Part shown: in pieces, positions 13,170 through 16,678 of the stretch
How the letters are laid out: every line of letters begins with the position of its first letter
How positions within the stretch are numbered: the first letter of the stretch is position 1
Notes under the pieces: generated by a model
Told to the model about the DNA's origin: nothing
The model's database searches: none
Seen by the model: the letters and a program-made list of their open reading frames with translations, nothing else
Made by a program: the position numbers and the translations under genes
Source: Brachybacterium fresconis
Lineage (GTDB): Bacteria > Actinomycetota > Actinomycetes > Actinomycetales > Dermabacteraceae
Direction: 5' to 3'
DNA: 64,000 bases
Assembly (NCBI RefSeq): GCF_017876515.1
Contig: NZ_JAGIOC010000001.1
Span: forward strand, 3,410,001-3,474,000

Positions 13170-13412
13170 ATGGCATCGATCGTTGTCCGCAATGTGGACC
13201 CTGAGGTGAAGGAATTCCTCGTGGCCCGAGCGGCAGAGCACGGCCGCTCGATGGAGGCCGAGGTGCGGGACGTGCTGGCTCGCGCCGCGCGACGGCCCCG
13301 TCACCGGAACATCGCACTGGCCCTTCGCGGAGCAGCGGAGAGCGCCGGGGTCATCGAGGACCTCCCCATCCCGGAGCGCGTCGACGACGCCCGTCTCGCG
13401 GAGTTCGAGTGA
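13170..13412 (+). CDS. FitA/VapB-type ribbon-helix-helix antitoxin (orphan)
   Basis: DNA-binding antitoxin of 80 aa. Residues 3-10 (SIVVRNVD) form the RHH strand, followed by VKEFLVARAAEHGRS and the FitA-type MEAEVRDVL helix; the acidic C-terminus would wrap a PIN toxin. A GGAGG ribosome site precedes the ATG. Family members autorepress the toxin operon and neutralise a VapC/FitB ribonuclease. Here the toxin frame that overlaps its stop is broken after about 11 residues (see 13409), so this antitoxin is probably an orphan. Confidence 0.85.
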   Translation: MASIVVRNVDPEVKEFLVARAAEHGRSMEAEVRDVLARAARRPRHRNIALALRGAAESAGVIEDLPIPERVDDARLAEFE

Positions 13413-13441
13413 TCGTCCTCGATACGACCGTCGTCTCCGGC
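13409..13441 (+). pseudogene. N-terminal stub of a PIN-domain (VapC/FitB) toxin
   Basis: A GTG overlapping the antitoxin stop (GTGA, the usual vapBC coupling) opens a frame beginning VIVLDTTVVSG, the canonical first strand and first catalytic Asp of PIN toxins. Similarity then ends; the frame runs into unrelated sequence and stops at 13495, inside the 3' end of the opposite-strand monooxygenase. About 120 residues, including the other acidic residues, are missing. Confidence 0.7.
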
Positions 13442-13464
13442 CAGGGAACAGCCTCGGGCGGTGC

Positions 13465-14823
13465 TCACCGCCGGCGCGCCCACCCCATCGAGTAGGTCCA
13501 CGCCATCACGTGCCGCAGCGGCGTGCGCAGGGCGAAGCTCACGCCGAGCGACCGTGCGGCGGCGAGCGGTCCGGGCAGCGGACGCCCGAGGGCCGTGTTC
13601 GCGTGGCCGAGGAGGCCGGCCACCCGGGCCCGTCGGCGACAGACCCGCTCGAGGCGCCGCCACGACGGGTCCGTATCCAGCGGGCCGCGCGACGCTCGTC
13701 CGCTCGCCGTGCCCCGCACCATGCGCGCCAGGAGCGGCGCGGCGTCGAGGGCGTCCAGCCAGCCCAGAGTGATGCCCTGACCGCCGATGGGGCTGATCTC
13801 GTGGGCGGCATCGCCCAGCAGCACGCACCGGGTCGTGACCAGGCTCTGGGCCGTGCGGCGGCGCACCGAGAACACGCTGATCATGCTGGTCGTCGCCGGA
13901 TCGAGCCGCACCCCGATGCGCTCGCGGATCGCCCGGGTCAGCACCTCGGGGTCGGGCTCTGCGAGATCGCCTCGACCGGTGTGGGCCACCCAGCGTCGTC
14001 GTGCGCCCGGCAGGGGGAAGGACTCCACGACGCCGTCCGGCTCGAGGTGGATGAGGGCGTCGCGGTCGGTGCCGACTCCGCGGGGGTCGGTGCCTTCTGC
14101 GCTGATGCCCCCGGTGCCGGTGCCGGTGCCGGTGCCGGTGCTGGTGCTGGTGCCGGGGCCGTTATCGCCGATGCCCTCGGCGCCCGCGCTGTCGGGGTCG
14201 GCGAGGTCGCCCATGAGGTAGGTGTCGCGATGTTCGGCTCCGGTGGTGCCGATGCCGAGCAGCTCACGGACCGTGGAGCGGGATCCGTCGGCGGCGACGG
14301 CCACGCGGGCATGGAGACGGAGGGTGTCCGTCGAGGGTCCCGTCTCCGCGACCTCTCCGGTCGCTCTCGCGGTCACCTCGACCCCGTCGGCCCTCTCCCG
14401 CAGCGCCGTCACCTCCCAGCCGCGGCGCAGCGCTCCGGGCGCCGACGCGTTCAGGCGCTCGGCGAGCATCGCCTCGGTGCGGCTCTGCGGCAGCGCCAGC
14501 ACATAGGGTCGGCCCAGCCAGGCCCGTGCGAAGCGCAGCCGGCCCAGCTCCCGGCCCCGGCTGCGCGCTCGACCACAGCGGATCCGTGCCCCGGCCCGGG
14601 CGGCGGCGCGTTCCAGGCCCACCTCGCGCAGTGCGCGGAGCGCCGGCGGGTGCAGCCCGATCGCGCGCGAGTGCTCGGCGGGGGCGGTGCGACGCTCCAT
14701 GACGAGGACATCGACGCCGCGCCGCGCCAGCAGCGCGGCGAGGAACAGCCCCGTCGGCCCGCCGCCGACGATCAGCACCTCACAGCGAACGTCGACCTCG
14801 GGGCCGGGAGCCGGCACGGTCAC
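13465..14823 (-). CDS. FAD-dependent aromatic hydroxylase/monooxygenase of the type III PKS operon
   Basis: Class A flavoprotein monooxygenase of 452 aa. GGGPTG (residues 20-25) binds FAD ADP and GDAAHEISPIGGQG (337-350) contacts FAD ribityl and substrate. Residues 225-238 are a low-complexity Thr/Ser-Gly run in a loop, encoded by a GGTGCC-type repeat at about 14107-14160. The GTG start overlaps the methyltransferase stop (GTGA), so it is the third gene of an operon with a type III PKS and a methyltransferase. By analogy with SrsC of Streptomyces it may hydroxylate a polyketide-derived phenol toward a quinone; the substrate is inferred from context only. Confidence 0.87.
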   Translation of the reverse strand: MTVPAPGPEVDVRCEVLIVGGGPTGLFLAALLARRGVDVLVMERRTAPAEHSRAIGLHPPALRALREVGLERAAARAGARIRCGRARSRGRELGRLRFARAWLGRPYVLALPQSRTEAMLAERLNASAPGALRRGWEVTALRERADGVEVTARATGEVAETGPSTDTLRLHARVAVAADGSRSTVRELLGIGTTGAEHRDTYLMGDLADPDSAGAEGIGDNGPGTSTSTGTGTGTGTGGISAEGTDPRGVGTDRDALIHLEPDGVVESFPLPGARRRWVAHTGRGDLAEPDPEVLTRAIRERIGVRLDPATTSMISVFSVRRRTAQSLVTTRCVLLGDAAHEISPIGGQGITLGWLDALDAAPLLARMVRGTASGRASRGPLDTDPSWRRLERVCRRRARVAGLLGHANTALGRPLPGPLAAARSLGVSFALRTPLRHVMAWTYSMGWARRR

Positions 14824-15524
14824 GGCGTTCCGGTGCCGTGGGTGAGCAGGAGCCGCCAGCGCCCGGTCGCCGTCACCTCCCAGTCCTCCGGCACGAGGGG
14901 GCGCAGCTCGTCGGCCGTATAGCTGCGGCGGATCGAGGTGAGCCCGTCCTCCCGGATGTAGGAGCCGCGGAAGAGCGGCCAGGTGCCCACGGAGAACAGG
15001 GCATAGCCGAGGCGACCCCGCTGGATGTCGCTGTGGACCGCGGCGGTGCGGGCGAGGCGCCGGGAATCGGCCAGCAGGGCCTGCAGCTCGTCGGCGGTGA
15101 GGTGGTGGAGCAGGTGGTTGGAGACGACCAGGTCGAAGCGCTCGCCCTCGGCCACCAGCTCGCTGGAGAGCGCCCGACGGAACTGCACTCCCGCGACGGG
15201 CGGTTGCCGTCGCGCCCAGGCATGCGCCCGCGGATCCGGATCGATGCCCGTCAGGCGCAGGTCGAGGCCATCGCGATGGGCCCACCGGGCCAGCGCCCGG
15301 ACGAGGTCCCCGCCGCCGCTGCCGACGTCCAGCACCGTGGTCGGCCCGTCGCGGCGCAGGTGGGGTCGCAGCTGGTGGCGGTAGGTGGCCCGCCAGTCGG
15401 CGACCACGGCGTTGACCAGACGGAACTGGGCGTAGGTGCGCTCGAGCATCGCCGGGTCGCAGTCGGGATCGTCCATCTGCTCCGTGGCGCGCTCGTCCCG
15501 TGCGAGAAGGGACGGCAGGATCAC
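14820..15524 (-). CDS. Class I SAM-dependent methyltransferase of the type III PKS operon
   Basis: Cytoplasmic methyltransferase of 234 aa with motif I VLDVGSGGGD at residues 64-73, the acidic end of beta2 in LTGIDPDP, and DLVVSNHLLHHL as motif IV-like. It starts at a GTG overlapping the PKS stop (GTGA) and overlaps the monooxygenase start at its own end, making all three genes translationally coupled. Likely role is O- or C-methylation of the PKS product. The analogous srs cluster uses a different, isoprenylcysteine-type methyltransferase, so the chemistry may differ. Confidence 0.85.
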   Translation of the reverse strand: MILPSLLARDERATEQMDDPDCDPAMLERTYAQFRLVNAVVADWRATYRHQLRPHLRRDGPTTVLDVGSGGGDLVRALARWAHRDGLDLRLTGIDPDPRAHAWARRQPPVAGVQFRRALSSELVAEGERFDLVVSNHLLHHLTADELQALLADSRRLARTAAVHSDIQRGRLGYALFSVGTWPLFRGSYIREDGLTSIRRSYTADELRPLVPEDWEVTATGRWRLLLTHGTGTP

Positions 15525-16678
15525 GGGCGCTCCGCGGGCTCGTCGACGGGCGCGCCGATCGTGGTCAGCAGCGCCGTCTCCACCGTCAGACCGGGGCCGA
15601 AGGCCATCGAGCACACGCGCTCCTCCGTGCCGGGAGTCGCCTCGCGCAGGATCTCGGCCAGCACGAACATCACGGTCGCGCTGGACATGTTGCCGAAGTC
15701 CCGCAGCGTCTGCCGGGCGGGGACGAGCTGGGCCTCGGTCAGCTCCAGCTTCGCCTCGACCTTGTCCAGGATGCTGCGGCCGCCGGGGTGGATCGCCCAG
15801 TGCTCGATGTCGCGATAGGGGAGCGCCTCGAGCGACGGGTCGTGGGCGAGCAGCGGGACCAGGGCGCCGGTGATGTGTTCATCGATGATGTGGGGGACGT
15901 AGGTGCCCAGGACCATCTCGAAGCCGTGGTCGCCGATGTTCCAGGCCATCGCCTCCTCGCCCACCGGGGTCAGCACGGTCTCGAAGTGGTCCAGCCGCAG
16001 CAGCGGGGTGCTCGCGGGCAGGTCGCGCCCGGTGACGATCGCGGCGGCGGCGCCGTCGGCGAACAGGGAGGAGCCGACGATGGTGTCGGGGTCGTTGGAG
16101 GTGCGCACGTGCAGGGTGCACAGCTCGACGGTGGCCACCAGCACCACGGCCTCGGGGTCGGCTCGGCAGATGGTCTGAGCCTGGCGCAGGGCGGGCAGCG
16201 CGGCGTAGCAGCCCATGAACCCCAGGTGGTAGCGCTGCACCGAGGGGTTCAGGCCGAGGGCGCGGACGATCCGGTAGTCCGGGCCGGGGGCGAAGAAGCC
16301 GGTGCAGGAGACGGTGATGACGTGGGTGACGTCCGCGGCCTCGATCCCCTCGGCGGCCGTCAGCGCCTGGTCGGCGACGCGGGTGTAGAGCTCGGAGGCC
16401 TCCCGCGTGAAGACCTCGTTGCGGGCGCCGGTGGTGGGGTTCAGGAAGCGGCCGGTCCCGGCCTCGAAGAACACCGGGTCGCCCTCCTCGGGCGGGCCGT
16501 CCCACTCATCCAGGGCGCTGTAGCGGCGCTCGATGCCGGAGGAGTTGAACGAGGTGGAGACCAGGCGCTGGCCCAGGCGGGTGAGATCGGGCTGGGCGGC
16601 GAAGACATCGCGGACGTCCTCCTGCGCCAGCTCCGTGGCAGGGACTGCGACTTCCAGGGACCGAAGGGTGACCGTCAT
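15521..16678 (-). CDS. Type III polyketide synthase (chalcone/stilbene synthase superfamily)
   Basis: Homodimeric ketosynthase of 385 aa that extends an acyl-CoA starter with malonyl-CoA and cyclises the product to a resorcinol, pyrone or naphthalene. The triad is complete: Cys125 in SCTGFFAPGPD, His297 in AIHPGG and Asn330 in FGNMSSAT. The family C-terminal AFGPGLTVE is at 359-367. First gene of the PKS-methyltransferase-hydroxylase operon. ATG 16678 is preceded by GACAAT and 5 nt, possibly a leaderless start. Starter length and product type cannot be read from sequence alone; an alkylresorcinol or alkylpyrone lipid is the likeliest guess. Confidence 0.93.
   Translation of the reverse strand: MTVTLRSLEVAVPATELAQEDVRDVFAAQPDLTRLGQRLVSTSFNSSGIERRYSALDEWDGPPEEGDPVFFEAGTGRFLNPTTGARNEVFTREASELYTRVADQALTAAEGIEAADVTHVITVSCTGFFAPGPDYRIVRALGLNPSVQRYHLGFMGCYAALPALRQAQTICRADPEAVVLVATVELCTLHVRTSNDPDTIVGSSLFADGAAAAIVTGRDLPASTPLLRLDHFETVLTPVGEEAMAWNIGDHGFEMVLGTYVPHIIDEHITGALVPLLAHDPSLEALPYRDIEHWAIHPGGRSILDKVEAKLELTEAQLVPARQTLRDFGNMSSATVMFVLAEILREATPGTEERVCSMAFGPGLTVETALLTTIGAPVDEPAERP

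Follow-up and report, generated by a model that had tools for sequence, protein, structure and literature searches.

The 64,000-nucleotide stretch of the Brachybacterium fresconis genome analysed here (contig NZ_JAGIOC010000001.1, positions 3,410,001 to 3,474,000; hereafter the window) carries a minus-strand operon that runs from 16678 down to 13465 and encodes, in this order, a type III polyketide synthase (PKS), a methyltransferase and a flavin adenine dinucleotide (FAD)-dependent hydroxylase. We think it reasonably likely that its three enzymes act in turn to build a long-chain phenolic lipid, whose role would overlap that of the srs/pkq type of operon; in some lineages the window operon appears to take the place of that type. 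The features of the locus are as follows.

15521..16678, minus strand: type III PKS; ATG start at 16678, 385 amino acids, stop at 15521
14820..15524, minus strand: class I S-adenosylmethionine-dependent methyltransferase, family NF004851/PRK06202; GTG start at 15524, 234 amino acids
13465..14823, minus strand: class A (FAD_binding_3) flavin hydroxylase; GTG start at 14823, 452 amino acids, with what we take to be the GxGxxG, DG and GD motifs
15521..15524, minus strand: GTGA overlap of the PKS and methyltransferase genes, 4 nucleotides; present in 11 of 12 Brachybacterium relatives
14820..14823, minus strand: GTGA overlap of the methyltransferase and FAD genes, 4 nucleotides; present in 8 of 12 Brachybacterium relatives
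14111..14161, minus strand: CCGGTG hexamer array, source of a Gly-Thr loop in the hydroxylase; strain-specific, in none of the 12 relatives

A preliminary description of this DNA had proposed three genes joined by GTGA overlaps and encoding an intact chalcone-synthase-type PKS, a class I methyltransferase and a class A flavin hydroxylase, and our analysis bears it out on each of these points. Both four-nucleotide junctions are present; the overlap counts for the relatives use starts chosen by a script, and the open reading frame listing prints longer alternative starts for the methyltransferase and FAD genes. Third-position GC is 0.96, 0.91 and 0.89 for the PKS, methyltransferase and FAD genes, the proteins match Chal_sti_synt_N/C, Methyltransf_25 and FAD_binding_3, respectively, each above the Pfam cut-off, and the ratio of nonsynonymous to synonymous substitution against four relatives is 0.13-0.44; composition, domain matches and substitution ratios together indicate that the three genes are under purifying selection. 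A scan of the operon for promoters and terminators found none. A chalcone-synthase domain search of the genome (4.63 Mb, two contigs) returned the operon PKS at 89.8 bits and a second match at 35.2 bits (cut-off 27), which we infer to be a FabH-like protein.

In what follows, type A denotes the kind of operon found in the window and type B the srs/pkq kind, with an SrsA-type PKS and an ICMT methyltransferase. The catalytic triad of the PKS (C157/H297/N330) is present in all 57 aligned PKS rows, and both the triad and Trp246 are present in all 34 type A rows, which represent 33 genomes, one entered twice. A mapping from a motif and an identical nine-residue spacing, with ArsB and HidC outside the alignment, would place Trp246 and Met255 at the positions of ArsB Trp281 and of ArsC Met293 and its HidC-type counterpart. 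ArsB Trp281 is reported to go with resorcinols and ArsC Gly284 with pyrones, Met293 of ArsC lying nine residues further on (PMC6274091, PMC9927152). Met at the Phe265 position, where the window PKS has M255, is described as marking HidC-type enzymes, and Cys there as marking a clade near PKS18 (PMC8086630). Cys125, His190 and Trp246 are common to all PKSs encoded in trios with a methyltransferase and a flavoprotein, as is Met255 in all but three (Ile, Ile, Leu). The 13 type B rows have Val at 125 (one Thr), Thr at 190, Trp at 246 in 12 of the 13 as in the window PKS (one Phe) and Ile at 255 (one Val), and a PKS18-like Tsukamurella enzyme has Leu246 and Cys255. On this mapping, the Trp at 246 favours a resorcinol over a pyrone as the PKS product.

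The window PKS shares 38-42% identity with six trio PKSs from Proteobacteria and Planctomycetota (one of them truncated), 36% with a Paenibacillus trio PKS and 31-35% with the srs-type (SrsA/PKS10-11-type) PKSs of the same order. In a tree of the 57 PKSs, a branch of support 1.0 separates type A plus the Deinococcus enzymes from all other rows, the 13 type B rows form one clade (support 0.998), and the trios of Proteobacteria, Paenibacillus and Paludisphaera lie between the two, with poor support for the deeper branch order. The window PKS therefore falls outside the SrsA/PKS10-11 clade, in a separate group of the tree; the best solved relative of a type B query is Pks11. The structure model of the window PKS (predicted local distance difference test score 80.8) has the chalcone-synthase fold, with 4b0n as best PDB match; Ectocarpus PKS1, PKS18, 2-pyrone synthase and chalcone synthases score alike in the fold search, so that the starter tunnel is not discriminated.

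The top NCBIfam family of the window methyltransferase is NF004851/PRK06202 (333.5 bits, cut-off 243). The same family ranks first for all seven trio methyltransferases scanned from other phyla; only the Deinococcus one exceeds the cut-off, and that of Paludisphaera scores just below it (232.4 bits). A literature search on PRK06202 found no paper, and comparison with solved structures gave two weak matches only. The preliminary description had also held that the methyltransferase is of a different class from that of the srs type, and this is so: the window enzyme is class I, whereas ICMT (PF04140) is found in all six type B loci of the order and in one Streptomyces locus, and a search of type A loci gave no match to it. 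The flavoenzymes are distributed differently. FAD_binding_3 scores 169 bits in both the window hydroxylase and the Deinococcus radiodurans trio protein, at most 56 bits in five non-Deinococcus trio proteins and 66 bits in one SrsC-like protein. A geranylgeranyl-reductase family comes out on top in the four low-scoring flavoproteins scanned against NCBIfam (TIGR02032 for Paludisphaera), and among solved structures the window flavoenzyme resembles generic hydroxylases and oxygenases. To judge from these family matches, the methyltransferase family is common to the operons of other phyla and the flavoenzyme subfamily is not.

The preliminary description likened the operon to srsABC. The likeness in order is real, since srsABC of Streptomyces and pkqABC of Mycobacterium also run PKS, methyltransferase, flavoprotein, but comparison with characterised clusters places the nearest relatives elsewhere. 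The mtr-fdo-pks operons of Planctomycetota (Gimesia, Rhodopirellula) are described as having the same three functions (PMC10896814); our sequence comparison used Paludisphaera alone, Gimesia and Rhodopirellula being likened by description. The Paludisphaera operon, which has the mtr-fdo-pks layout, shares the PKS signature residues and the methyltransferase family match just mentioned, and it differs in its order (methyltransferase, FAD, PKS), in a flavoprotein of the geranylgeranyl-reductase superfamily and in a PKS about 41% identical to ours. The likeness to the hierridin genes hidABC rests on their description, the Hid sequences lying outside the comparison: a PKS with Met at the Phe265 position, a methyltransferase and an oxidoreductase, for which the order hidC-hidA-hidB is also reported (PMC8086630). 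The srs-type loci, represented here by the type B loci of the order with SrsA and PkqA themselves outside the alignment, differ from the window not only in methyltransferase and PKS but also in their SrsC-like flavoprotein, whose best match is a geranylgeranyl-reductase family. The agqABCD genes of Actinoplanes encode a type III PKS with a methyltransferase, a monooxygenase and a prenyltransferase; no prenyltransferase lies among the few neighbours of the window operon that were scanned. Among described systems, the mtr-fdo-pks genes of planctomycetes come nearest by PKS signature and methyltransferase family, and the hierridin genes by signature only; srsABC is more remote. The operon combines a PKS type and methyltransferase family of planctomycete and proteobacterial kind with the gene order of srs/pkq and a flavoenzyme of its own.

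The operon is compact, as the preliminary description had it, and its layout is common, not rare. A PKS search of named genomes gave at least 589 pattern matches, at least 560 of them confirmed, and of the best 80 loci, which were kept, 75 carry the complete trio, arranged as PKS, methyltransferase, FAD. Three lack a recognisable FAD gene, two of which (L034, L062) end at a contig edge, and two, both from Sinomonas, lack a recognisable methyltransferase. The nearest named relatives of the PKS among the matches listed are from Brachybacterium (81-84% identical). In a sample of 58 genomes that includes the window's own, type A is present in 13 of 35 of the same genus and 3 of 22 of the same order; a wider sample of 297 genomes of the order, again with its own genome, has it in 59, and of 394 genomes of the class 27 have it at 48% identity or above. 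In the closest Brachybacterium relative the operon is flanked on either side as in the window, and in three others (L119, L123, L126) this is so at least past the FAD gene; inheritance of the operon in this genus appears to be partly vertical.

Among plasmids the PKS matched 187 records, of which 14 regions were examined. Annotated trios occur in Deinococcus (two), Paludisphaera, Paracoccus, Roseomonas, Methylobacterium, Psychrobacter and Sphingobium, the Psychrobacter methyltransferase and FAD genes lying on the other strand. In a Microbacterium locus the methyltransferase and FAD genes adjoin a PKS match that is not annotated; in Paenibacillus a trio is visible only by comparison of open reading frames. 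One Streptomyces locus of the plasmid collection is of srs type, the Tsukamurella and Rhizobium loci have no trio in their annotation, and in a Nonomuraea locus only the PKS was found with the window queries, type B genes not having been searched for there. A scan of viral contigs (viral_contigs) with the PKS as single query found no relative. On the Sphingobium yanoikuyae plasmid (L141) genes for a carrier protein and a ketosynthase precede the trio, and could supply an acyl-ACP starter. On plasmid 3 of Deinococcus radiodurans isolate DRR11 (L113) genes for a glycosyltransferase and a phospholipase D-like protein come after a type A trio.

Across the 297 genomes of the order, type A PKSs (scored at E <= 1e-80) are present in 59 and type B PKSs (E <= 1e-50) in 69, with at most six or seven first-look candidates scored per genome. 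No genome has both, where 13.7 would be expected if the two were independent (P = 2e-8, kinship ignored). Most families carry one kind only. In family f13 the 24 genomes divide into five with A, seven with B, none with both and 12 with neither, sorted by genus. We did not find this exclusivity in print within the literature searched.

One genus, g14, is mixed. Every candidate was scored in its 11 genomes, and four carry A, seven carry B, none carries both and none lacks both. In an rpoB tree of these genomes (FastTree, rooted with the window genome, supports 0.985-1.0) the two kinds are interleaved, with three sister pairs that each join an A to a B genome (A175/B048, A080/B148, A109/B202) and at least four changes needed; the pairs A080/B148 and A109/B202 recur in a tree of nine of the genomes built on genes adjacent to glgA. 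When the labels were shuffled, four changes were both the maximum seen and the commonest result (9,617 of 20,000), so that the trait is scattered as if freely moving. With the tree ignored, permutation puts the chance of so perfect a complement at 1/330. Type B lies near glgC-glgA in all five B genomes read, and all four A genomes (one on a contig of only 4.3 kb) have that site but no B genes in it. In each of the three A genomes read the A operon lies among different neighbours, and the only long DNA common to these regions is a 3.2-kb block, 86-89% identical, which is the operon itself. The A PKSs of the genus form one clade (support 1.0), and A has therefore probably spread within it. Type B here is a two-gene version, PKS and ICMT, in all five loci read (L155-L159). 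A 727-base stretch (80%) shared by an A locus (L153) and a B locus (L158) was considered as a common neighbour and rejected: in L158 it falls within a gene for a chemotaxis receptor, a family with many paralogues, and we take it as no link; a weak stretch of 454 bases (68%) was seen between L152 and L167.

By analogy with the systems above, the product is most likely a methylated, ring-hydroxylated long-chain alkylresorcinol that can be oxidised to a quinone. In the proposed pathway the PKS would extend a long acyl thioester with three malonyl units and close the ring by aldol condensation to give a 5-alkylresorcinol; the PRK06202-family enzyme would methylate this, on oxygen like HidA or on carbon like the Gimesia enzyme; and the class A hydroxylase would hydroxylate the ring to a hydroquinone, which would oxidise to an alkyl-methyl(oxy)-benzoquinone. 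The end product would either reside in the membrane as a phenolic lipid or carry electrons as an alternative quinone. Every chemical step, the starter length, the methylation site and the physiological role are what we infer from the observed gene content, families, active-site residues, conservation and, in the sampled genomes, exclusivity. There are experimental parallels. Planctomycete PKSs expressed in Corynebacterium glutamicum are reported to give pentadecyl- and heptadecylresorcinols (C15/C17), and the addition of mtr and fdo a singly methylated product with the methyl probably on carbon; HidA is described as O-methylating (PMC10896814). In srs/pkq systems methylation and oxidation are reported to lead to an alkylbenzoquinone, an electron carrier according to work on Mycobacterium and a proposed one in Streptomyces (PMC9927152, PMC5916927).

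The preliminary description, which expected a methylated, oxidised phenolic lipid, had left a pyrone open, and the PKS could indeed make O-methylated alkylpyrones, the flavoenzyme then acting on the pyrone or its side chain. PKS18-like and Bacillus enzymes are reported to produce pyrones, and PKS18 is among the nearest folds of the window PKS. However, the residue at 246 is Trp, not Leu or Gly, in every type A row, and the PKS18-like Tsukamurella enzyme has no adjoining methyltransferase or flavoprotein; the phenolic half of that expectation is likely, and we regard the pyrone as improbable. A more serious alternative is that the operon yields a membrane phenolic lipid of purely structural or protective function, with no respiratory role, its redox state or polarity being tuned by the hydroxylase. 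The title of a 2008 paper links Srs lipids to penicillin resistance, Azotobacter lipids are reportedly linked to cysts, and the alternative system in g14 is a PKS-ICMT pair without a flavoprotein; yet the hydroxylase gene is present in 77 of the best 80 loci, which suggests that an oxidised ring matters. We consider a purely structural or protective role possible, though less likely than not. It could also be that the exclusivity of A and B is phylogenetic clumping plus chance, and that the two operons have unrelated roles. Most families do have A only or B only, a single mixed genus was seen, and type B in that genus has no flavoprotein; this account would nevertheless have to accommodate exactly one system in each of 11 genomes over at least four switches, and we hold it to be unlikely. 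In its place we would suggest, tentatively and as a nearly balanced question, that A and B, with unrelated methyltransferases and PKSs of different clades, are interchangeable in Actinomycetes, A arriving repeatedly as a 3.2-kb block, each time at a new site, B being lost from a fixed one, and one of the two being kept per genome. If so, the lipid would be near-essential in those lineages.

Several observations weigh against a three-step phenolic lipid pathway that stands in for the srs/pkq type. The order-wide exclusivity is confounded, and in part explained, by kinship, and one genus only tests it within a genus. Neither an A nor a B-like match was found in 22 of 35 Brachybacterium relatives (some incomplete), which implies that the lipid is dispensable there. 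Beside the g14 type B PKS there is no SrsC-like gene, and no match above 30% identity in the seven B genomes (56% in a positive control genome); without a further enzyme, A and B can therefore not both lead to a quinone in this genus, what alternates is at most a methylated polyketide, and the equivalence extends at most to PKS and methyltransferase. The window flavoenzyme appears to lie outside the subfamily of the non-Deinococcus trios, and its reaction may differ. The PKS has only about 41% identity to that of Paludisphaera, the single planctomycete PKS compared and not a tested enzyme, and 31-35% to the srs type. The planctomycete study judged the methyl to be C-linked and left the role of fdo open (PMC10896814), and the literature searched held no chemistry for any member of the type A clade. 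If the proposed pathway is nonetheless correct, an operon that is common in the order (present in 59 of the 297 genomes sampled), and on which no experimental work was found, gains a testable function. The one-or-other pattern of A and B would then become genetic evidence that the phenolic lipid, though long regarded as a secondary metabolite, serves a purpose which at least one genus can rarely forgo.

The Gly-Thr repeat loop singled out in the preliminary description exists, but not as a feature of the enzyme family. The stretch is encoded by the CCGGTG array (8.5 copies) and is missing from all 12 Brachybacterium relatives compared, including the closest, whose PKS is 96% identical; a functional or family-wide loop is rejected on this ground. 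The length of the loop site varies among the relatives, one of which has a different low-complexity insert there, and the Gly-Thr stretch is an expansion of the hexamer peculiar to this strain, at a loop that tolerates such change. The hydroxylase of another genome (L129, G017) has a His-Glu-rich and other low-complexity inserts, indicating that the enzyme tolerates repeats in several loops. In one of the 12 relatives (L122, also L008; G022) the FAD gene is broken, with matches in two different frames and a diverging C-terminus, through either sequencing error or decay.

Beyond the end of the FAD gene lies a FitA-like antitoxin gene (13170-13412, PF22513), followed by a toxin-like start in a frame at 13409-13495 that stops after 28 codons and adjoins the FAD gene end, perhaps a truncated toxin partner of the antitoxin. 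The length of this stretch (13170-13495) differs in the nearest relative.

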